Shown here one piece after another: positions 15,631-24,464 of a stretch of DNA of 35,374 nucleotides. The notes under the pieces are model-generated. The model ran no database searches, was not told where the DNA came from, and worked only from the letters and a program-made list of their open reading frames with translations. The position numbers and the translations under genes are program-made. The stretch spans positions 1 to 35,374 of the forward strand of contig JABGRF010000307.1 in assembly GCA_018648405.1 (NCBI GenBank), in the 5' to 3' direction. The DNA comes from Candidatus Scalindua sp. (lineage in GTDB: Bacteria > Planctomycetota > Brocadiia > Brocadiales > Scalinduaceae). Numbering within the stretch: the stretch's first letter is position 1; each line of letters begins with the position of its first letter.

Positions 15631-16362
15631 TCATTTCCTTTTCTTTTTTAAGACAAAGCTTACATCTGTTATCTTTCCTGTTTCTACTCTTACCTCCTGC
15701 GTAACCGACTCGAACCTTTCATGCCATGTCTTTAATGTATAGTCCCCTGGCGGGATATTATCAATTTTGAAATTACCGTCTTTCATGGTAACTGTAAAAT
15801 ATGGATTATCAAATACAACGACAAACGCAGACATCTCCGCATGCACATTACACTGAATAGGTACATAGCACGATTTGTCAAATGTTACCTGTTTTACAAC
15901 ACCTACGTCGTAAGTACCAAGATTAAACTGATTGCAACCGTCTTGTGGAGAGAAAACATTATGTTTCACAAGGTCACTGTTTGGGAAATTAAGAATGGTG
16001 CCTTTCTGTACAGCGATAACATGCGGAACGAAAGTCCGATCAAATTGGCCTATCACCCCATGCTCCTCTGGTGCAGGGTAATCGTTGTTACCGATTTCTT
16101 CAATGAAAACTACTATGTTCTCAGGGTATTTCATTCTTTTGCATTTTACATTACCCGTAATAGAGCCTCCATTCTCAACTTCAACTTCTATCTTTATCTC
16201 CCGTTTTAGCTCCTGTCTGGCCTTAGCTAGCTTCTCCTGCATTATCCTGGTACGATCTTCATATACGGTCCGGTTATCTCCTTGAGCGTCTTGGTTCAAA
16301 ACTAACAATGTAGTTACAAAACAGAATAGTATTAAGAAACATATATTTTTCATTTTACTCAC
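15631..16362 (-). CDS. Exported cupredoxin with C-terminal carboxypeptidase-regulatory-like domain, copy A
   Basis: A 243-residue periplasmic protein. A signal peptide covers about residues 1-28. A charged helix (about 36-58) and a beta segment lead to a cupredoxin domain (about 65-185). Type-1 copper ligands are visible: H134 in KHNVFS, then C171, H174 and M177 in QCNVHAEMSAF. The C-terminal 55 residues (DGNFKIDNIPPGDYTLKTWH) form a carboxypeptidase-regulatory-like fold. By family knowledge these plastocyanin-like or methylamine-utilisation-like proteins carry electrons or copper. It is a close paralogue of the gene at 18123-18851. GTG at 16362 opens the frame, but ATG at 16353 (MKNICFL) has the better ribosome-site spacing in both copies. 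An inverted repeat (CCTGTTG 16373-16379 with CAACAGG 16388-16394) sits just upstream. Confidence 0.87.
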   Translation of the reverse strand: MSKMKNICFLILFCFVTTLLVLNQDAQGDNRTVYEDRTRIMQEKLAKARQELKREIKIEVEVENGGSITGNVKCKRMKYPENIVVFIEEIGNNDYPAPEEHGVIGQFDRTFVPHVIAVQKGTILNFPNSDLVKHNVFSPQDGCNQFNLGTYDVGVVKQVTFDKSCYVPIQCNVHAEMSAFVVVFDNPYFTVTMKDGNFKIDNIPPGDYTLKTWHERFESVTQEVRVETGKITDVSFVLKKKRK

Positions 16363-16471
16363 AGCCTCTCTTCCTGTTGATATTCCGCAACAGGCTTATG
16401 ATGGATTCTGATACCTTCCAGTTTGGATACACGTGTCAATTATGGCTGGATGAGGTTACATGTGAAACGTA

Positions 16472-16945
16472 TTAAGCTTCATCTTTGCTGAGTATCTTTT
16501 CTGTCTCCCTCGCCATATACCGCACAATAGCGCCACAGAACTTTCTTCTCTCAGGTGTTGTAAACTTGCCACGATCCCTCCAAACCTTCGTTACGCATGC
16601 GCAATCTGTAGTCTTGTACTTTTGTTCGTAGGTATCTGCTATCTTTTTAGTTCGCTTGTAGGCATTATCAGAATCCTCATCAGGTTTAAGTCTACCATAT
16701 TTTATGCCCACAGCCATGATCGGGCCGGTCACTGCACCACACGTAGAGCCCTTGCCACCAAATCCTGTCCCGAATCCGGTAGACGCTTTTAGCACGATAT
16801 CTGGAACATCTAAAGTTCCCGTATCATTAAGTGCATGCAGTATACTCTCAGCGCATCCAAATCCGTTTAGATAGTGTTCTCTGGCTACTGTCCCGACATC
16901 CTGAAACGGTTCTCCGGTCAGGGCTCCAGCATCTTTGCTCTCCAT
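16472..16945 (-). CDS. C_GCAxxG_C_C family probable redox protein
   Basis: A 157-residue protein with the family layout: NGFGCAESIL (C31), GSTCGAVTGPIMAVG (C69), TTDCACVTK (C115 and C117) and KFCGAIVRY (C137). TGFGTGFGGKG lies before the second cysteine. By family knowledge these proteins (PF09719) are presumed redox or metal-binding proteins whose reaction is unknown. No signal peptide is evident, so it is probably cytoplasmic, unlike its cupredoxin neighbour. It sits between the NapH-like gene and cupredoxin A, and has no counterpart before cupredoxin B. It was therefore either inserted into this copy of the duplicated unit or lost from the other. Confidence 0.83.
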   Translation of the reverse strand: MESKDAGALTGEPFQDVGTVAREHYLNGFGCAESILHALNDTGTLDVPDIVLKASTGFGTGFGGKGSTCGAVTGPIMAVGIKYGRLKPDEDSDNAYKRTKKIADTYEQKYKTTDCACVTKVWRDRGKFTTPERRKFCGAIVRYMARETEKILSKDEA

Positions 16946-17042
16946 GATTGGTCTCCCAGTCCTTATTTTAAAATCATCTATACTTTGGCATTATATTGCT
17001 TATAACGTTAAATGTCTAACGCCAATGTTAGTCAAAGTTGTC

Positions 17043-17140
17043 CGGTTAAAGAATATCTGAATGGTTATAAAGCCACAGTGTTCATGCCGGTTTAAATCTA
17101 CCAACGAGTTCTTCAGCTCCTCCATAATGGAAGACCGTAC
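17043..17140 (-). repeat. Decayed 3' end of a secreted repeat-domain gene plus its trailer (duplicate of about 18919-19020)
   Basis: The stretch aligns base for base, with a few gaps, to the end of the truncated gene at 18977-19228 and its downstream stem-loop region. Shared blocks include CGGYTAAAGA, the trailer ATGCCGGTTT / TTGCCGGTTT and TCC(A)AATGGAAG. The part next to 17141 corresponds to the coding end of the domain gene, but its frame is lost. The homology reaches the NapH-like stop codon, so that junction is the duplication edge. Confidence 0.6.
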
Positions 17141-18073
17141 TCATCTTACAAATCCCAATGCATTATGCGGACAGACCTCAATGCATCGTCCACAGGCAAA
17201 ACAGTCAGGGTGACTCTTGCCTCCATCAATAATTGATTGCACAGCAGGACAATGGCTCTTTTTAATACAGAGATTGCAGTCTGTACAATTATGCTTGTTT
17301 ACTTTCACCTTTATCAGCGAGAAGTGTTCGAGTACCCACGTAAACAACCCGATAGGACAAACCGTGTAGCAAAATGGTCTGAAAATGAATAGTGAGGCTG
17401 TCAGTGTAACCAGGAAAACCAAGATTCCCATAGCTTCAAATCGCCAGTGTAGAAAATGAAACGGATTGAAATAGCCGTAAATACCTATTCCTGCAGTAAA
17501 GACAAGTGTTATAAAGGTTATAAATATTATAATCCGAATAGAATTAGTTACCTTAAAAGGCAGTATAACCTTAAGCTTTTCAGGAAGCGGTATCTTATTA
17601 AAAAGTTCCTGTATAGCACCAATTGGACATGCCCAGCCACAGAATATCTTATTTCCGATTATACTTAAAACTGAAATAACGGCTAAGACTGTCAGGAATA
17701 TTATAGGTACTCCTCTGTCTGCACTTAGAAACAAAAAAGGCTTTGTAATTGCGCAGACAGGGCTTGGATGCATGCCCATTCCCCATGCAAAACGTCCAAG
17801 AGGCAATGCGGGAAGAATTCCGAAAGTAAAGAATACTACACCTAAAATTACTAATCGAAGATTCCTTTGTACCCATGATTTCATCAAGAGCCAGATTCCG
17901 GCTAAACAAAAGAGAGCACCTATCCAGACGCGAGGCAATAATAAAACATCAAAAACCCCCATAGACCTTCTACTGCCACCAGAAGCCCAAACGGCTGTTG
18001 TAATGCACAGAAATAATAAGATATAAATTGATATTTTCCCTATTTTACTAATATAGTGTGAAGTATATTTCAT
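17141..18073 (-). CDS. NapH/CcoG-like polyferredoxin membrane protein, copy A
   Basis: A 310-residue membrane protein with a cleavable-type N-terminal segment (about 13-31, ending VWASGG). Five or so transmembrane helices follow (about 44-66, 72-92, 122-140, 178-198 and 214-232). Cysteine motifs typical of NapH/NosR-C proteins are CGWACP (145-150) and FRPFCYTVCP (231-240). A C-terminal double ferredoxin region has C263, C266, C269 and C275, then C291, C294, C297 and C301. C107 in SPVCAITKP is also conserved between the two copies. By family knowledge these proteins pass electrons from the quinone pool or other membrane donors to periplasmic partners. It lies between the two cupredoxin genes, which are natural acceptor candidates. 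An AAAGGTGG ribosome site precedes the ATG. Confidence 0.88.
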   Translation of the reverse strand: MKYTSHYISKIGKISIYILLFLCITTAVWASGGSRRSMGVFDVLLLPRVWIGALFCLAGIWLLMKSWVQRNLRLVILGVVFFTFGILPALPLGRFAWGMGMHPSPVCAITKPFLFLSADRGVPIIFLTVLAVISVLSIIGNKIFCGWACPIGAIQELFNKIPLPEKLKVILPFKVTNSIRIIIFITFITLVFTAGIGIYGYFNPFHFLHWRFEAMGILVFLVTLTASLFIFRPFCYTVCPIGLFTWVLEHFSLIKVKVNKHNCTDCNLCIKKSHCPAVQSIIDGGKSHPDCFACGRCIEVCPHNALGFVR

Positions 18074-18122
18074 GACTAATTCACCACCTTTCTGGAGCAG
18101 TAATATTATTCACTGCCCTTGT

Positions 18123-18851
18123 CTACTTTTTCTTTTTTAAGACAAAACTCACATCTGTTGTCTTTCCTGTTTCTACTCTTACCCCCTGTGTAACTGTTTT
18201 AAGTTTTTCATGCCATGCTTTCAATGTATATTCACCCGGAGGGATATTATCAATCTTGAAATTGCCGTCTCTTAAGGTAACTGCAAAATAAGGATTATCA
18301 AGCACCACTACAAATGCAGACATCTCTGCATGTACATTACACAATAGAGGTACATCACACGACTTATCAAATGTTACTTGCTTTACAACACCCACGTCGT
18401 AAGTACCAAGATTAAACTGTTTACAACAGTCCGGTGGAGAAAAAACATTATGTCTGACAGCGTCGCTGTTCGGGAAGTCAATAGTTGTACCTTTCTGTAC
18501 GGCCAGAACGTGGGGTACAAAGGTCAGATTAAACTGGTCTATTATTCCATGCTCCTCCGGAGCAGGATAATCGTTGCCATTTACTTCTTCAATAAAAATT
18601 ACTACGTTTTCAGGATATCTAATCCTTTTACATTTTACGCTACCAGTAATAGTTCCACCATTCTCAACTTTAACTTCTATCTTTATCTCCCTTTTCAGCT
18701 CCTGCATGGCTTTCTTTAGATTCTCCTGCATTGTCCTGGCCTGATCTTCAGATAAGGCTCGGCTTTCCCCTTGAACGTTTTGGCATAAAGCCAAAAAAAT
18801 TGTTACAAAACAAGTTAGTATTAAGAAACAAATATTCTTCATTTTACTCAC
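18123..18851 (-). CDS. Exported cupredoxin with C-terminal carboxypeptidase-regulatory-like domain, copy B
   Basis: A 242-residue paralogue of the 15631-16362 protein, collinear over its whole length and roughly three quarters identical by eye. The signal peptide is at residues 1-28. The copper ligands are all kept: H134 in RHNVFS, then C171, H174 and M177 in LCNVHAEMSAF. Copy-specific features are a CC pair at 142-143 (DCCKQF where copy A has DGCNQF) and a shorter basic tail. The start question is the same: GTG 18851, or more likely ATG 18842 behind AAAGG. It is followed 49 bases later by the NapH-like gene, the closest pairing in the cluster, so the two probably work together in the periplasm and membrane. 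Confidence 0.87.
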   Translation of the reverse strand: MSKMKNICFLILTCFVTIFLALCQNVQGESRALSEDQARTMQENLKKAMQELKREIKIEVKVENGGTITGSVKCKRIRYPENVVIFIEEVNGNDYPAPEEHGIIDQFNLTFVPHVLAVQKGTTIDFPNSDAVRHNVFSPPDCCKQFNLGTYDVGVVKQVTFDKSCDVPLLCNVHAEMSAFVVVLDNPYFAVTLRDGNFKIDNIPPGEYTLKAWHEKLKTVTQGVRVETGKTTDVSFVLKKKK

Positions 18852-18925
18852 CGCCTTTCTTTCACAGCAATATTACTTGTAAATTTCTGTGTGTATCACC
18901 AATGCTCGTCTAATTAAATCGGCTA

Positions 18926-18962
18926 AAGAGCATCTGGATTGTCATGAAGACCAGATGCTCTT
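18926..18962 (-). terminator. Stem-loop after the truncated repeat-domain gene
   Basis: Perfect 12-base arms AAGAGCATCTGG (18926-18937) and CCAGATGCTCTT (18951-18962) enclose a 13-base loop. It lies 15 bases after the stop codon on the minus strand and before cupredoxin B. The tail is T-rich but not a pure T-run, so it may be a leaky terminator or an RNA-stability element. The diverged duplicate near 17050-17090 has lost perfect pairing. Confidence 0.55.
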
Positions 18963-18976
18963 GCCGGTTTGAGTGA

Positions 18977-19228
18977 CTAACGATTCCTATGACCCTTCCA
19001 GAATGGAAGGCCGCTATCATCTCTGAGTTTAAGTAATTCACCGCCCTTTTTAACCTCAGAAGTGACGATGGCCGCTTCCCCTCTGTCATATATTCTGTGT
19101 CCCTTGATCTCTACCTTGTCATCTGGCATGAACCTAATACCTCGACTCTCCATATACCCTCCGGGACCCAGACCTACAGAGAGAGTTTCCTCTTCCGTTT
19201 TTACAATTAAATGTATACCGTAATACAT
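18977..19228 (-). CDS. Truncated copy of the secreted repeat-domain protein, probable gene remnant
   Basis: The 83-residue frame is one copy of the domain that occurs twice in the 23598-24464 protein: YGIHLIVKTEEET, LGPGGYMESRG, DDKVEIKGHRI and LKLRDDSGLPFWKGH. The domain similarity continues upstream of the ATG at 19228 in the same frame to about 19285 (GNVASIEKATPGRG) with no usable start codon. The frame is closed by a stop near 19307. No signal peptide remains. The neat W-Y-I-E of intact copies is G-Y-M-E here. It is therefore more likely a 5'-deleted remnant than a working gene, though translation from the internal ATG cannot be excluded. Confidence 0.6.
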   Translation of the reverse strand: MYYGIHLIVKTEEETLSVGLGPGGYMESRGIRFMPDDKVEIKGHRIYDRGEAAIVTSEVKKGGELLKLRDDSGLPFWKGHRNR

Positions 19229-19601
19229 TCCTCTACCCGGAGTTGCTTTTTCTATGCTGGCTACATTACCATCTGTTAAAAGTATACTTTGTACATCAAC
19301 TTTTTCCTACTTCTAATATGATTATACAATTAAGAGTTAAAAAAGAAATTGGACAAAAGTGGCATTTACAATCTCTTTGGATTCATTCCGTTGCAACTAA
19401 AGTTGCATCCATAATGAATCTAAAGACACTACCACAAAAACTTAAAAGAGTGAACTTTTCCGGTAATACTCTTGTTGTTAACAGTAAGTCAGTTTCCATA
19501 AACCGGGTATTAAATACATATGGAATGTACGGCAGGAAGAGCTTGTTTTATTCAGTAAGCTTTTAATAGATGGAACCATATAAGAAAGGAAGGGCAGAAT
19601 C
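19229..19601. other. Intergenic region of 373 bases upstream of the Rieske gene
   Basis: It contains the lost 5' end of the truncated domain gene (to about 19285) and a large inverted repeat (19375-19425). An open frame at 19243-19566 has a composition unlike the neighbouring proteins, and its middle is the inverted repeat, so I do not call it a gene. The Rieske ribosome site (AAGGAAGGG) ends the region. Confidence 0.45.
19375..19425. repeat. 51-base interrupted inverted repeat in the Rieske leader region
   Basis: The outer arms CTTTGGATTCATT (19375-19387) and AATGAATCTAAAG (19413-19425) pair with one mismatch. The inner arms TGCAACT (19392-19398) and AGTTGCA (19401-19407) pair perfectly around AA. 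No T-run follows, so it is not a classical terminator. It could be a regulatory hairpin, a protein-binding site or the remains of a small mobile repeat. Confidence 0.6.
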
Positions 19602-20117
19602 ATGGCAAATGATTTAAAAGCAAAAGAAGAAGCTTGTCCAGGTAATATCTACACATCCAAGAGAGACTTCTTTACCCTGGCTGGATGGGCGGTTTTTTTA
19701 ACAACAGTTGGGATTTATACAGCTAAATTATTGGGACCGAAAGCGGTGGGGGGATTTTTCTTTCCCAGAGTTCTTTTTGAATCTTCTCCTGTTTTCCCTA
19801 TCGGTTATCCAGCTGACTATGCTCCGGGTAGTGTAACGACATTAGAATCCAGGAAGGTTTTTATTTCTAGAGAAGGTAACAGTTTTAAGGCTATATCAGT
19901 AATATGCCAGCATCTTGGCTGTGCAGTTCATTGGACAAAGGAAAAAAACATTTTTGAATGTCCGTGTCATGGTAGTAAGTATTATAAAAACGGAGTTAAT
20001 TTTGCGGGTCCAGCACCAAGGCCATTGTATCACTTTCAGATTTCTCTCTCGGATGATGGGAAGCTGGTTGTTAATACTGAACAAAGAGTTCCGATAGAGA
20101 CTGAACTGGTTGTGTGA
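19602..20117 (+). CDS. Rieske [2Fe-2S] iron-sulfur protein (orphan)
   Basis: A 171-residue protein. An N-terminal twin-helix anchor region (SKRDFFTLAGWAVFLTTVGIYTA, about residues 19-41) has a single membrane helix without a clear twin-arginine. The C-terminal Rieske fold carries CQHLGC (C102, H104 as ligands, C107 disulfide) and CPCHGS (C120 and H123 as ligands, C122 disulfide). By family knowledge it is the high-potential electron carrier of cytochrome bc-type complexes. No cytochrome b or c1 gene is adjacent, so it either serves a complex encoded elsewhere or a separate membrane electron-transfer module next to the cupredoxin/polyferredoxin genes. A strong ribosome site (GGAAGGG) precedes the ATG. 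It ends at a bidirectional terminator. Confidence 0.92.
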   Translation: MANDLKAKEEACPGNIYTSKRDFFTLAGWAVFLTTVGIYTAKLLGPKAVGGFFFPRVLFESSPVFPIGYPADYAPGSVTTLESRKVFISREGNSFKAISVICQHLGCAVHWTKEKNIFECPCHGSKYYKNGVNFAGPAPRPLYHFQISLSDDGKLVVNTEQRVPIETELVV

Positions 20118-20177
20118 TTATCTTGAATTCAAATATGTAATTTCTTTCAAATGGTTAATGTGTGTACAGTAATATAA

Positions 20178-20207
20178 TAGAGAGCAAGATTAAGGTCTTG
20201 CTCTCTA
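20178..20207. terminator. Bidirectional intrinsic terminator
   Basis: Perfect 12-base stem TAGAGAGCAAGA (20178-20189) with TCTTGCTCTCTA (20196-20207), a 6-base loop TTAAGG, then TTTTG on the plus strand and TTATATT on the minus strand. It lies between the convergent Rieske and LuxR-type genes and overlaps the stop codon of the latter. Confidence 0.85.
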
Positions 20208-20867
20208 TTTTGATCTCAAATCCTTCCTGCACTTTTGATTCATCAGAAACACACTTGAGTTTAATGCATAGAGGGCAAGCTGGAGTCTATCAGAGACTCC
20301 AGTCTTTTTATATATCCTGCTGAGGTGTGACTTGACCGCCTGCTCACTGGTATTCAGAGCCTTCCTTATCTCCTTGTTTGATAGTCCATTACAAACCAAT
20401 TTGGCTACCTCTATTTCTTTGTCTGTCATAGAGGTTTCCTTACCACAGCTTTTTACTTTCACACCTGGAATAATTTCAAGCAGTTGCTTGTTTTCAAACC
20501 ATAACTCACCTGCGATAACACACTCTATAGCTTTCTTTAACAGAGGCAGATCGGTATCAGGAGACAAAATACCTACAAGTCCGCGTGAGATAAAGCTTAT
20601 CAAACATTCATTTTCTATTTTTGGAAGGCATCCTGTTCCTAAAAGAAGAATTCGTACCTTGTGATTGTCGGAAATGTCATCGAAAATAATACCGGCAAGC
20701 GTATTAAAATCTGTGATCAGGAGATCGTTTTCTTCCTTAATGATTTCCCGGGGGTTTGTACTGACCGTAATGATACTTTCATCAAGATTACACTCTTCCA
20801 GTAGTAGTTTTTTAAGGCCTTCTCCGAACAGATGGTTGCAGCAACCGATGTTTATTTTTAATTGCAT
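20205..20867 (-). CDS. LuxR/NarL-type regulator with a degenerate receiver domain
   Basis: A 220-residue protein. The N-terminal 125 residues follow the NarL receiver pattern (NHLFGEGLKKLL, LLITDFN with D53, ILLLGTG, GILSPDTDLPLLKKAI). However, the acidic pair that binds Mg2+ is replaced by C9-C10, and the conserved lysine after the fourth strand is missing. The C-terminal LuxR helix-turn-helix is intact (about 146-201): TDKEIEVAKLVCNGLSNKEI and SEQAVKSHLSRIYKKTGVSDR. By family knowledge it binds DNA as a dimer, but classical phosphorylation is doubtful, and the vicinal cysteines allow a redox or metal signal (inference). No histidine kinase is adjacent. The stop lies in the terminator. Confidence 0.85.
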   Translation of the reverse strand: MQLKINIGCCNHLFGEGLKKLLLEECNLDESIITVSTNPREIIKEENDLLITDFNTLAGIIFDDISDNHKVRILLLGTGCLPKIENECLISFISRGLVGILSPDTDLPLLKKAIECVIAGELWFENKQLLEIIPGVKVKSCGKETSMTDKEIEVAKLVCNGLSNKEIRKALNTSEQAVKSHLSRIYKKTGVSDRLQLALYALNSSVFLMNQKCRKDLRSK

Positions 20868-21043
20868 GGATGTATTTTATGCAAATTGTCTCGAAAATCC
20901 AAGACTATTTAATGATATTGGCATCTCTTGCGCAAATCAAAATATAGGTATAGGATATGAAAGGTGAGATATAGTCTGATATGGTGAATCGGGAAGTGCT
21001 TTGCTGGAATTTACTTTAATCCATATATTCTATAGTGTCTCAT

Positions 21044-22456
21044 TTAATTGAGAACATATTTATCACCACGAGACGGCCGCTCAGTAATGAAACCTAGTTT
21101 ATGTTCTACAACTTCTGCAAACGCCTTTGACGCTTTCTCCTCTCCATGTGTAATAAATACTTTACGGGGTGGATTGTTCTTAAACGCGGATATCCATTGT
21201 AATAATTCATCTTTATCTGCGTGAGCAGAAAACCCATTGATTTTAATCACTTTGGCCTTTACCGGATAATGTTGACCATGTATCCGCACCTTTTCTGCAC
21301 CATCTACGATTTGTCGGCCAAGTGTTCCTATAGCCTGATAACCAACAAAAAGAATTGTACATTCAGGCCTTATGATGTTGTTTACAAGATGGTGTCTTAC
21401 ACGTCCGCCATTACACATACCGGATCCGGCAATAATAACTATTGAACCTCTAATATAGTTTATTGCTTTTGACTCATCTACCGTCCTACACAATTGTAAT
21501 CCCGGAAGGTCACACGGATGTTTACCTCTACGAAGTAACTCCGCCGCCTCTTCATCAAACAAATCCGTATGATGACGAAAAACATCAGTAACTCTAATTG
21601 CCATAGGGCTATCAAGAAAAACCATAATGTGTGGAATCAGGTCCTGACGTAGAAGTTCGTTTAAGCGGTAAAGCACTTCCTGTGATCTTTCTATTGCAAA
21701 GCTTGGGATAATAACGTTTCCACCTTTATCATTAGTATTGTTGATAATATCGCTCAGGGTTTCTTGAATATTTGCCACAGAAGAAGGAGTTCCTTTGCTG
21801 CCATAAGTCGATTCCATTACAACATAATCAGCTTGCTTAAATACCGTAGCATCTTGAAGAATCGGGGTATCATTTTTGCCTATGTCGCCAGAAAAAATGA
21901 GAGTCCTTTCCTCTCCATTGCTTTTTATAAATAGCTTAATATTTGCAGAACCTAGTATGTGGCCTGCGTCATAAAACACTACATCGATGCCGTGTCCTAG
22001 ATCAAATTTCTGTTGATATGGTATCGAAGAAAAATATTGAAATGAAGCCTCGGTATCTTCCTTAGTATATAAAGGGATTTCCGGATAATTTCCTTTTTTA
22101 CCTTCACGAAGATGTCGTTTTAGTTTAAATGCAGCATCCTCTTCTTGTATTTTAGCGGAATCAAGGAGTACGATCTTTGCAATTTCAGTTGTTGCCGGTG
22201 TACAATAAATTCTGCCTTTGAAACCCTCCTTAACTAATTTTGGTATCAGGCCACAATGATCCAGATGGGCATGGGTTAATAATACGATGTCTATCTTGTC
22301 AGGTGATACATGAAACGGCTCCCAGTTTAAATTTTTTAAACCGCGCTCCTGGTATAATCCGCAATCAACAAGCAAACGGATGCCATTAACTTCAACAAGG
22401 TACTTTGAGCCGGTCACATTACGAGCGGCTCCTAAGAAAGTTAGATTTATTTCCAT
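21044..22456 (-). CDS. Metallo-beta-lactamase fold / beta-CASP ribonuclease-like protein
   Basis: A 470-residue protein of full beta-CASP length. The metallo-beta-lactamase motifs are D31 in LLVDCGLYQE, LTHAHLDHCG (H62, H64, D66, H67), DAGHILGSANI, FSGDIG and the C-terminal ITHGE. The beta-CASP insert (about 210-370) has MESTYGS, IIPSFAIERSQE and GSGMCNGGRVRHHL. The RMMBL-type C-terminus has INGFSAHADKDEL. By family knowledge this group (CPSF73/YSH1-like bacterial members) cleaves RNA; the substrate is unknown here. It lies 63 bases downstream of the NapH-like copy B on the same strand, so read-through transcription is possible, without an obvious functional link. Confidence 0.92.
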   Translation of the reverse strand: MEINLTFLGAARNVTGSKYLVEVNGIRLLVDCGLYQERGLKNLNWEPFHVSPDKIDIVLLTHAHLDHCGLIPKLVKEGFKGRIYCTPATTEIAKIVLLDSAKIQEEDAAFKLKRHLREGKKGNYPEIPLYTKEDTEASFQYFSSIPYQQKFDLGHGIDVVFYDAGHILGSANIKLFIKSNGEERTLIFSGDIGKNDTPILQDATVFKQADYVVMESTYGSKGTPSSVANIQETLSDIINNTNDKGGNVIIPSFAIERSQEVLYRLNELLRQDLIPHIMVFLDSPMAIRVTDVFRHHTDLFDEEAAELLRRGKHPCDLPGLQLCRTVDESKAINYIRGSIVIIAGSGMCNGGRVRHHLVNNIIRPECTILFVGYQAIGTLGRQIVDGAEKVRIHGQHYPVKAKVIKINGFSAHADKDELLQWISAFKNNPPRKVFITHGEEKASKAFAEVVEHKLGFITERPSRGDKYVLN

Positions 22457-22519
22457 AGTTCTGTATTTATGTTTAAGTTTAATCTTTTCTGTGTGGTTCG
22501 ATAATTTACCTCTAAATCT

Positions 22520-23410
22520 TTATCTTGTAAACCTTAAAGCCTTCTCAGGACAGGCTTCAATACATCGGCCACATGCAAAGCAGTCTGGTCTTGACCTTTT
22601 CTCTTCAAGAACAGATTGAACAGTAGGACAAGAACTTTTCTTAATGCATAGATTACAGTCTTTACAATCATGCTTGTTAACCTTGATCTTAACCAGCGAA
22701 AAGTGCTCCAGTAGCCAGGTATAAAGTCCTATAGGACAGACCACGTGACAGAAGGGTCTGAAGATGAACAGAGATGCCATCAGCGTAATAAGTAAAACCG
22801 TAACAGACATAATGTCGAATCTCCAGTGAAGGAAATGAAATGGATTGAAGTAATCGTAAATGCTCCGGCCTATGGTAAGCACTAACGTGATGAAAGCAAT
22901 GAAGATTATCATGCGTAGAGTGTTAGTTAACCGGAAGGGAAGTATAAACCTGAGCTTCCTGGTTAAGGGTATATGATTAAATGCTTCCTGAATAGCACCA
23001 ATAGGACAAGCCCAACCGCAAAAGAGTTTATTGCCAACAATACTGAACACAGAAATAAAGAATAAAATTGCTATAAAGATAATGGGCACCTGTCTGCCTG
23101 CACTAAGAAACAAAAATGGCTTGGTGATAGCACAAACAGGGCTTGGGTGCAACCCCATGCTCCAGGCAAACCAGCCCAAAGGCAATGTTGGCAGAATACC
23201 AAAAAAGAAGAATATGGCACTTAACACTATTAATCGCAATCTACTGCGTACGTGGGCCTTTATTAAAAGTCCCATTCCTGCCAGACAGAAGATAGCGCTG
23301 ATCCAGACACGTGGTAACAGCAAAATATCAAGAAACCCCATTGATCTTCTGCCACCTCCCGCAGCCCAGGTAGTGTCTGGAATACACAGCAAAATTGCAA
23401 CTGCGCACAA
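22520..23410 (-). CDS. NapH/CcoG-like polyferredoxin membrane protein, copy B, with an unusual start
   Basis: Paralogue of the 17141-18073 protein with the same motifs: SPVCAITKP, CGWACP, FRPFCHVVCP and the double ferredoxin end (CKDCNLC, then CFACGRCIEACP). The first standard start is a TTG at 23410, which would begin inside the signal-like segment. The frame continues upstream to an ATA at 23452, whose following codons (KNLYPIYRFFG) align with the N-terminus of copy A. An AAAGGAG ribosome site (23462-23468) stands nine bases before that ATA, and no ATG is available. Translation from AUA, an ATG-to-ATA mutation or a sequence error are the options. By family knowledge it relays electrons across the membrane. 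It follows the repeat-domain gene and a stem-loop. Confidence 0.85.
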   Translation of the reverse strand: MCAVAILLCIPDTTWAAGGGRRSMGFLDILLLPRVWISAIFCLAGMGLLIKAHVRSRLRLIVLSAIFFFFGILPTLPLGWFAWSMGLHPSPVCAITKPFLFLSAGRQVPIIFIAILFFISVFSIVGNKLFCGWACPIGAIQEAFNHIPLTRKLRFILPFRLTNTLRMIIFIAFITLVLTIGRSIYDYFNPFHFLHWRFDIMSVTVLLITLMASLFIFRPFCHVVCPIGLYTWLLEHFSLVKIKVNKHDCKDCNLCIKKSSCPTVQSVLEEKRSRPDCFACGRCIEACPEKALRFTR

Positions 23411-23525
23411 TACTACTCCAAAAAACCTGTATATAGGATATAAATTCTTTATATGAACTCACTCCTTTATTCAAATAACGGTAAGAGTCGTTAGTGTTAA
23501 CGTCCAGTAAAACTCCAAGCAAGCG

Positions 23526-23576
23526 CATAAGTATGCAGGGCCTTGAGAGACTAAACATTAAACCTGCATACTTATG
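23526..23576 (-). terminator. Stem-loop between the repeat-domain gene and NapH-like copy B
   Basis: Perfect 14-base arms CATAAGTATGCAGG (23526-23539) and CCTGCATACTTATG (23563-23576) with a 23-base loop. It lies 21 bases after the repeat-domain stop and before the NapH-like start, without a T-run. It may stabilise or partially terminate the upstream message. It is in the same relative place as the stem-loop at 18926-18962 but has a different sequence. Confidence 0.55.
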
Positions 23577-23597
23577 AGTATCTTTGTATCACCTGAA

Positions 23598-24464
23598 CTA
23601 GCGACGTCTCCAACCACTCCAGGCAGGAAAACCGTTCTCATCTCTGAGTCCCAGTATTTCGTCTCCATCTTTTACTTCCGCGGCAATAATAGCCGGTTTC
23701 CCGTCGAACATAATCCTTGACCCTGTTATTTCGACCTTGTCCTCAGGTTCTATAGTAAAATTCTGGTTTTCAATGTACCATCCAGGTCCCAGATGAACAT
23801 CAATTGTTTCCTTATCTGATTTTAGACTCAGATGCACTCCATATGACATACCTTTTCGCGGCGTAATTTTGTCTACGCTGATAACTTCGCCACTGATAGT
23901 TTCAATTGTCGCAGGGTTATACATCCTTCCATAACTGGATTTAGATCCCCATTTTCCGCTTCCTTTCCATCTCATTCTTTGTTGAGTGGGAGGTTGAACA
24001 TCCGCGCGTCGTCTCCAACCACTCCAGGCAGGGAAACCGTTCTCATCTCTAAGTACTAATATTTCTTCTTCCTTTTTTACTTCATAAGCAATGATTGCCG
24101 GTTTTCCATTGAAAGTAATTCTAGAGCCCTTGATTTCGACCTTGTCATTAGGTTCAATCGTAATGTCTTGATTCTCAATATACCATCCTGGTCCTAAATG
24201 AACAGGTACGGTTTCCTTGTCAGTTTTCACTGTCAAATGAACACCGTAGGAGGACGCACCTTTCCCGTGAATAATTTCGTCTATGCTGACTACCTCACCA
24301 CTGACAGTTTCATCTGTTTCCTGATTAAACATGCTACAGCATGGACCTCCAGGCCCCTGGCCCCTGCCTCCTCTCCACCCCATTCCACGCTGAGCAATGG
24401 ACTCGGTGGCATAAAGGACGGTAAAGGTAGAAATTATTAATATTAAGGTTGCTATCTTACTCAT
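23598..24464 (-). CDS. Secreted protein with two copies of an OB-like repeat domain
   Basis: A 288-residue protein. A signal peptide (residues 1-24, ending SIAQ) is followed by a Gly/Arg-rich spacer with CC at 42-43. Two copies of a domain of about 105 residues (48-153 and 183-288) are then joined by a polar linker. Each has ETVSGEVxSxDxI, YGVHLxxKxDKET, VHLGPGWYIENQ, EDKVEIxGSRI, GKPAIIAxEVK and LRDENGFPAWSGWRRR. The pattern of short beta strands suggests an OB-like fold; this is an impression, and I do not know its function. I believe similar domains occur in exported proteins of metal-respiring bacteria, but could not check. It is the first gene of a run with NapH-like copy B. Confidence 0.82.
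   Translation of the reverse strand: MSKIATLILIISTFTVLYATESIAQRGMGWRGGRGQGPGGPCCSMFNQETDETVSGEVVSIDEIIHGKGASSYGVHLTVKTDKETVPVHLGPGWYIENQDITIEPNDKVEIKGSRITFNGKPAIIAYEVKKEEEILVLRDENGFPAWSGWRRRADVQPPTQQRMRWKGSGKWGSKSSYGRMYNPATIETISGEVISVDKITPRKGMSYGVHLSLKSDKETIDVHLGPGWYIENQNFTIEPEDKVEITGSRIMFDGKPAIIAAEVKDGDEILGLRDENGFPAWSGWRRR
23601..24323 (-). repeat. Intragenic tandem duplication, period 405 bases
   Basis: The DNA encoding the two repeat domains is collinear with a spacing of 405 bases (135 codons). For example, CTCCAACCACTCCAGGCAG occurs at 23608 and 24013 on the plus strand. The retained nucleotide identity suggests a fairly recent event or ongoing homogenisation. Confidence 0.8.

Follow-up and report, generated by a model that had tools for sequence, protein, structure and literature searches.

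The window analysed here is a whole contig of 35,374 nt (C106; GenBank JABGRF010000307.1, assembly GCA_018648405.1) from a Candidatus Scalindua genome that is 78% complete. Between positions 15631 and 24464 it carries intact and broken genes for a secreted protein with predicted OB-fold domains, a blue-copper protein (cupredoxin) and a NapH-like membrane polyferredoxin. We compared the locus with related Candidatus Scalindua, marine anammox bacteria that include the sister genome G004 (SI037_bin72; record JABHIW010000149.1), and this comparison shows that the predicted OB-fold, blue-copper and NapH-like genes recur together on one strand, preceded by a single putative promoter element. In the window the module is encoded on the minus strand, and every gene named in a preliminary description of this DNA is present where that description placed it. 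In the following list and below, G and C numbers denote genomes and their contigs.

23598-24464, minus: OB2, a secreted protein of 288 amino acids (aa) with two OB-fold domains and a Sec-type signal peptide; relatives in Scalindua and Brocadiaceae
22520-23410, minus: NapHB, second copy of the NapH-like membrane polyferredoxin, 68% aa identity to NapHA; two CX3CP and two 4Fe-4S motifs; ratio of nonsynonymous to synonymous substitution rates (dN/dS) 0.08
19391-19408, strandless: 18-bp palindrome ATGCAACTTTAGTTGCAA, candidate operator; the only such site in the window and in its 2.57-Mb genome
19300-19428, minus: conserved promoter stretch ahead of the OB-cupredoxin-NapH operon, from a five-locus alignment
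18977-19282, minus: OBfrag, C-terminal half of an OB2-type gene whose N-terminal half is deleted; collinear with the intact OB2 of G004:C5
18123-18851, minus: cupB, blue-copper protein with a C-terminal carboxypeptidase-regulatory-like domain, from its ligand motifs and the fold of a homologous fusion
17141-18073, minus: NapHA, NapH-like membrane polyferredoxin, from profile matches and motifs
16993-17146, minus: 3'-end remnant of an OB gene with its trailer, at the junction of the tandem copies; recognised by nucleotide match and translation
16472-16945, minus: C_GCAxxG_C_C redox protein (Pfam PF09719, 1.4e-23), placed by its breakpoints as an apparent insertion in the second copy
15631-16362, minus: cupA, second blue-copper protein, 76% aa identity to cupB; orthologue in G004:C75
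20205-20867, minus: LuxR/NarL-type regulator (Pfam GerE, 8.7e-14), candidate binder of the palindrome
19602-20117, plus: Rieske [2Fe-2S] protein, divergent neighbour on the same intergenic region; G010 and G006 likewise have it between the palindrome and luxR

Duplicated and eroded copies

The tandem part of the locus reads OBfrag, cupB, NapHA, OB remnant, CGCAxxG gene and cupA, and a second unit at 24464-22520 has OB2 and NapHB but lacks a cupredoxin. Minus-strand self-BLAST over 15.0-25.5 kb, with which a repeat finder is concordant, reveals the collinear homology between copies on which the preliminary description had staked its proposal of duplication. The cupredoxin genes are 81% identical over 734 nt (18128-18861 against 15639-16372), the NapH-like genes 71% over 851 (22522-23368 against 17143-17989), the two halves of the OB2 gene 74% over 330 nt (24006-24335 against 23601-23927), and OBfrag and OB2 67% (19011-19222 against 24037-24248). 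The 3' end of an OB gene recurs together with its trailer (16993-17146 against 18870-19022; 69% over 155 nt, E=8e-9), and the trailer pair alone scores 81 against a shuffle mean of 26, with 0 of 300 shuffles as good. The remnant described at 17043 is thus real; it starts at 17146, overlapping the stop codon of NapHA, and reads DEYGLPLWRS followed by a stop against DDSGLPFWKGHRNR. The homology of non-coding trailers claimed more generally holds only for this pair, the other trailer pairs being near chance, and the fragment at 18977 is present with homology that reaches about 19282 rather than 19228.

The genes follow one another in the minus-strand order originally given, but the CGCAxxG gene is excluded from the duplicated unit by the self-BLAST breakpoints. 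It fills a 620-nt block (16373-16992) whose counterpart positions in the other copy, 18861 and 18870, are contiguous. Because the block separates exactly two stretches that adjoin in the other copy, these breakpoints indicate that it was either inserted into one copy or lost from the other, and from the same layout we infer an ancestral unit of OB, cupredoxin and NapH. The CGCAxxG protein itself scores well above family cut-offs (Pfam 83.6 against 27; NCBIfam 70.1 against 47.4). A strong promoter-like match, TAGACA-17-TATAAT, lies in the trailer of the OB remnant (16990-17018), ahead of the CGCAxxG gene and cupA.

Both paralogue pairs are, by their substitution rates, old and kept by purifying selection (dN/dS 0.08 for NapHA/NapHB and 0.16 for cupA/cupB; dS from 0.8 to more than 2). 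In a tree of 24 cupredoxins, cupA pairs with its G004 orthologue (support 99/96) inside a four-member clade of window and G004 sequences (100/98), and NapHB splits off earlier than NapHA and the NapH that G004, G009 and G010 each have in one copy (support 90/94); these positions argue that the paralogues pre-date the species. Of the tandem duplication followed by loss that had been proposed, the collinear copies stand, but a single recent event is ruled out by dS and the trees, and the OB2-NapHB unit is older than the tandem. NapHB has no ATG or GTG at its aligned start (ATA where relatives have ATG; 23410-23470), and its nearest start is a TTG at 23410 preceded by GGAG.

Repeated fragments of OB, cupredoxin and NapH genes, and a possible short shared AGATGAG at the tandem junction, are what would be expected if the locus were a decaying hotspot, its copies made by illegitimate recombination and persisting mainly by chance, without joint function. 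Such a history is very improbable in view of the low dN/dS of the intact copies (0.08-0.16) at high dS, and of a promoter palindrome that is conserved where the coding order differs.

Related loci and the promoter palindrome

Comparison across 13 Scalindua genomes reveals clusters that recur in related genomes, the conserved neighbourhood that a joint function had been supposed to leave. In G004:C5, luxR, OB2, cupredoxin and NapH genes stand in this order, collinear with the window. Of the cupredoxin there only the final 33 residues are left (break at window 18233/18909), and the window's counterpart of this OB2, OBfrag, lacks the first half (break near 19272/19300), so aligned the two loci appear as reciprocal damage of one ancestral operon. 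G010:C28 carries OB and NapH. A single strand of G009:C68 holds NapH, a 179-aa membrane protein, an HlyD/ABC exporter set, OB2, DUF4405 and a cupredoxin; a TAA in this cupredoxin gene was dismissed, the gene being open for 239 aa. In G010:C22 and G004:C168 an OB domain and the cupredoxin are fused in single genes of 384 and 386 aa, strong genomic evidence that the two proteins work together. The flanks of the window are syntenic with G004:C75, in which a cupredoxin pair stands in place of the window's whole module. All five of the 13 genomes that have the OB gene carry NapH and/or DUF4405, and the other eight carry neither, a distribution expected once in 1287 if genomes are independent. Two further observations concern these relatives: the NapH gene of G010 is split by about 2 kb holding a 534-aa open reading frame (L038 8863-11827), and G009, G010 and G008 share a long same-strand cluster of (NapH), 179-aa membrane protein, HlyD, two ABC ATPases, two ABC-2 permeases, (OB), DUF4405, cupredoxin, 105-aa protein, FtsX, LolD, membrane protein and NosL-like protein (in record coordinates, L037 133-9896; L073 1240-13092; L164 232655-237491).

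The stretch at 19300-19428 is kept ahead of OB2 in G004:C5, ahead of both OB::cupredoxin fusions and ahead of NapH in G009, and contains ATGCAACTWWAGTTGCAT followed by a TATAAT-like box (TATAAT or TATAGT in the five aligned loci). Six palindrome-bearing operons contain OB, cupredoxin or NapH genes: those of the window, G004:C5, G004:C168, G009:C68, the G010:C22 fusion, and G010:C28, where the palindrome ahead of OB-NapH has a single mismatch. A seventh palindrome (G010:C22, 88 kb) precedes the cluster that runs from HlyD/ABC to DUF4405 and cupredoxin, and an eighth precedes genes for a 179-aa membrane protein and a DUF6448 protein (L166 8824-9423) in G006, which has neither OB nor NapH. Within the genus, module-linked intergenic palindromes occur only in G000, G004, G006, G009 and G010, and luxR is found in exactly the same five of the 13 genomes. 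One-mismatch palindromes in G001, G003, G007, G011, G012 and G002 lie in or beside unrelated genes, for the most part with housekeeping roles, and were put down to chance. No palindrome lies upstream of 24464, which rules out the same promoter for the OB2-NapHB unit. We propose that the LuxR-type regulator probably controls the operon by binding the palindrome, and that the OB-cupredoxin-NapH set is probably jointly regulated.

The LuxR-type protein has an atypical receiver domain with only a weak VpsT-like match, and G004 carries a 57% paralogue. Beside it in the window (21044-22456), and also in G009 and G010 at 88-89% identity, is a gene for a Beta-CASP metallo-hydrolase, which matches the NCBIfam type VII Cas14 model at 1.9e-126, below cut-off, and also archaeal aCPSF1.

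Protein properties and a proposed role

Both NapH-like copies have the motifs CGWACP and CYTVCP or CHVVCP, two 4Fe-4S motifs predicted to hold clusters, and at least five hydrophobic stretches. Their best NCBIfam match is TIGR02163 (3.5e-27 and 4.6e-28), and a PDB sequence search with NapHA found no relative. In Brocadiaceae, most of which have the OB domain among those examined, OB is directly followed on the same strand by DUF4405 in 11 loci (one shortened). Haem b binding has been demonstrated for DUF4405 proteins, whose presumed task is to conduct electrons across the membrane (PMC11334425). From this gene order, NapH-like and DUF4405 proteins look like alternative membrane partners of the OB protein. 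The small helical domain at the C terminus of Scalindua DUF4405 proteins resembles the start of distant NapH-like proteins from other Planctomycetota and an Armatimonadetes metagenome-assembled genome (MAG; hhalign probability 89%, P 2e-6). Several of the Brocadiaceae OB-DUF4405 loci have a TAT-type Fe superoxide dismutase and a two-CXXCH (dihaem) cytochrome c as neighbours, and the cluster of dihaem cytochrome c, dismutase, OB and DUF4405 genes (L079 9536-13071, L121, L122) is a possible oxygen-defence set.

Folds were taken from an AlphaFold model, searched with Foldseek, of the G010 OB::cupredoxin fusion, a homologue of the window proteins. Its single OB domain is modelled with pLDDT mostly 63-94, and its top matches are the OB folds of RPA14/32 and Stn1; a PDB sequence search with the OB profile gave ubiquitin-like matches only, probably by chance. 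The cupredoxin part matches NirK, amicyanin and plastocyanin (TM-score by target at most about 0.6, at moderate model confidence). Both cupA and cupB carry the type-1 copper ligands His, Cys, His and Met in an HN motif and CNVHAEM (C-x2-H-x2-M), the latter present in 24 of 24 cupredoxin relatives, and the Pfam Copper-bind score is 18.3 against a cut-off of 21.2.

The surroundings of related cupredoxins place the family, as judged from gene neighbourhoods, in high-potential electron transfer. The nearest Brocadiaceae homologue, in G022 and 55% identical, lies directly after an nxrA-like gene; the blue-copper proteins kustd1699 and kustd1713 flank the Kuenenia nxr cluster (PMC11897245, PMC8387239); and in nine Scalindua genomes a Rieske gene follows just downstream of a cupredoxin orthologue, which heads a Rieske/cytochrome b operon in the loci read through. 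The module cupredoxins might then simply be extra copies of the high-potential carrier between NXR and Rieske/cytochrome b complexes, with NapH and OB adjacent by accident, as the G004 cupredoxin pair without OB or NapH would allow. We consider this distinctly unlikely, since the module cupredoxins fall in clades apart from the Rieske-linked ones and are bound to the OB protein by gene fusions and a shared promoter.

Copper handling is a further alternative, in which the NapH-like protein would be a CcoG-like Cu(II) reductase, and the cupredoxin and OB protein would receive Cu(I) for enzyme loading or safe storage. Cu(II) reduction is known for CcoG, which sits in the membrane and holds two 4Fe-4S clusters (reviewed in PMC7558416), the G009 operon includes an HlyD/ABC-2 exporter, and the G008 and G010 operons continue from the cupredoxin through a 105-aa protein, FtsX, LolD and a membrane protein to a NosL-like protein, an arrangement that recalls Nos copper assembly. 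The similarity to NosL is weak, however (17.3 against a Pfam cut-off of 24 bits, E 0.006), and this tail is not found beside the window copies. Moreover, the NapH-like protein lacks the C-terminal Ig-like domain of CcoG, the type-1 electron-transfer site of the cupredoxin is complete and its relatives accompany NXR and Rieske/cytochrome b, and the neighbours read, short of a systematic search, include no P-type copper ATPase or CopZ. A role in copper handling seems rather unlikely.

We give about even credence to the proposal that these genes encode an electron-transfer module that is regulated, works outside the cytoplasm and occurs in some anammox bacteria, present here in two eroded copies and a third partial one. 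In this module, the NapH-like protein would take electrons at the membrane, from menaquinol or a cytoplasmic donor, and pass them across by way of its two 4Fe-4S clusters and its pair of CX3CP motifs. On the outer face the OB-fold protein would provide the dock, with the blue-copper protein as one-electron carrier to acceptors on the exoplasmic side. DUF4405, a b-type cytochrome, would stand in for NapH in other anammox genomes. On this view, the most likely use would be to supply reductant on demand to redox enzymes on the exoplasmic side when oxygen or nitrosative stress arises. The preliminary description had already suggested a membrane polyferredoxin feeding periplasmic copper proteins with an extracytoplasmic accessory protein; the fusions, the shared palindrome and the exchange of NapH for DUF4405 lend that idea support, and it keeps its conditional status.

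Several points weigh against an electron-transfer module. Broken copies occur in several loci (the cupredoxin in G004:C5, NapH in G010:C28, OB in the window), and because of them the module looks dispensable, to judge from the genomes compared. The role in stress draws on neighbours in another family; shared descent among the five OB genomes may make the co-occurrence look stronger than it is; and in incomplete MAGs such as these a missing gene is soft evidence. Outside Brocadiales, OB was not found beside NapH-like genes in Stahlbacteria, Armatimonadetes or two Planctomycetota, and the NapH-like genes of Stahlbacteria and other Planctomycetota lack this cupredoxin as a neighbour too. A 51% identical NapH-like protein of a Stahlbacteria MAG is alone on its contig (L034 1336-2262).

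A more specific and more tentative version of the electron-transfer proposal, possible but falling short of an even chance, is a previously undescribed anammox regulon in which the OB protein would be a common dock for interchangeable membrane carriers (NapH-type or DUF4405) with a blue-copper acceptor, switched by a LuxR-type regulator through the palindrome, with a part in handling copper or stress on the exoplasmic side of the membrane. Much of nitrogen loss is due to anammox bacteria, in which the routing of high- and low-potential electrons among NXR, Rieske/cytochrome b complexes and detoxifying enzymes has yet to be settled. The module would offer concrete parts for this routing by coupling an NXR-type blue-copper protein to a membrane protein with Fe-S clusters or haem b, and it gives context to a nameless Brocadiales OB-fold protein and its DUF4405 cytochromes.

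Comparison with known systems

Like NapH/MauN family members, the window's polyferredoxins are membrane proteins with two CX3CP and two C-terminal 4Fe-4S motifs. They score far below the NapH cut-offs, however (TIGR02163 95.5/98.4 bits against 213.05; PRK09477 86.1/90.5 against 234), have an extra N-terminal membrane region, and are partnered by an OB protein and a cupredoxin; the nap partners NapA and NapG are absent among the neighbours read in the window and relatives' loci, no whole-genome search for NapA having been made. NosR (match 3.2e-13) and CcoG (PMC7558416) are likewise membrane polyferredoxins linked to copper enzymes. At only 310 aa, the window protein differs from NosR in having no FMN-binding domain and from CcoG in ending at the ferredoxin motifs, without the Ig-like domain, which YccM-type homologues lack as well (PMC7558416). 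The OB domain has a weak NCBIfam match to MamS (1.8e-7), but at 31.5 against 200 bits it is far below cut-off, and no magnetosome genes were seen.

The DUF4405 haem-b cytochromes (PMC11334425) hold the slot beside the OB gene in Brocadiaceae and G009, whereas the window has NapH-like genes in their place and its own genome, 78% complete, yielded no DUF4405. Similarity to the NXR-cluster proteins kustd1699 and kustd1713 runs through the G022 homologue, to which, and not to kustd1699, the 55% identity refers; the cupredoxins of Scalindua Rieske operons are about 65-71% identical to the module copies. The module copies differ from both groups in forming separate clades and in lying beside OB and NapH or DUF4405. 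Judged against the open-licence literature, the module is likely a side branch of electron or copper handling that has not been described before. Its parts are of known kinds in a new, probably regulated combination; what is new here are the OB::cupredoxin fusions, the promoter palindrome with luxR, the pairing of OB with DUF4405, and the nxrA and Rieske neighbours of the cupredoxins.

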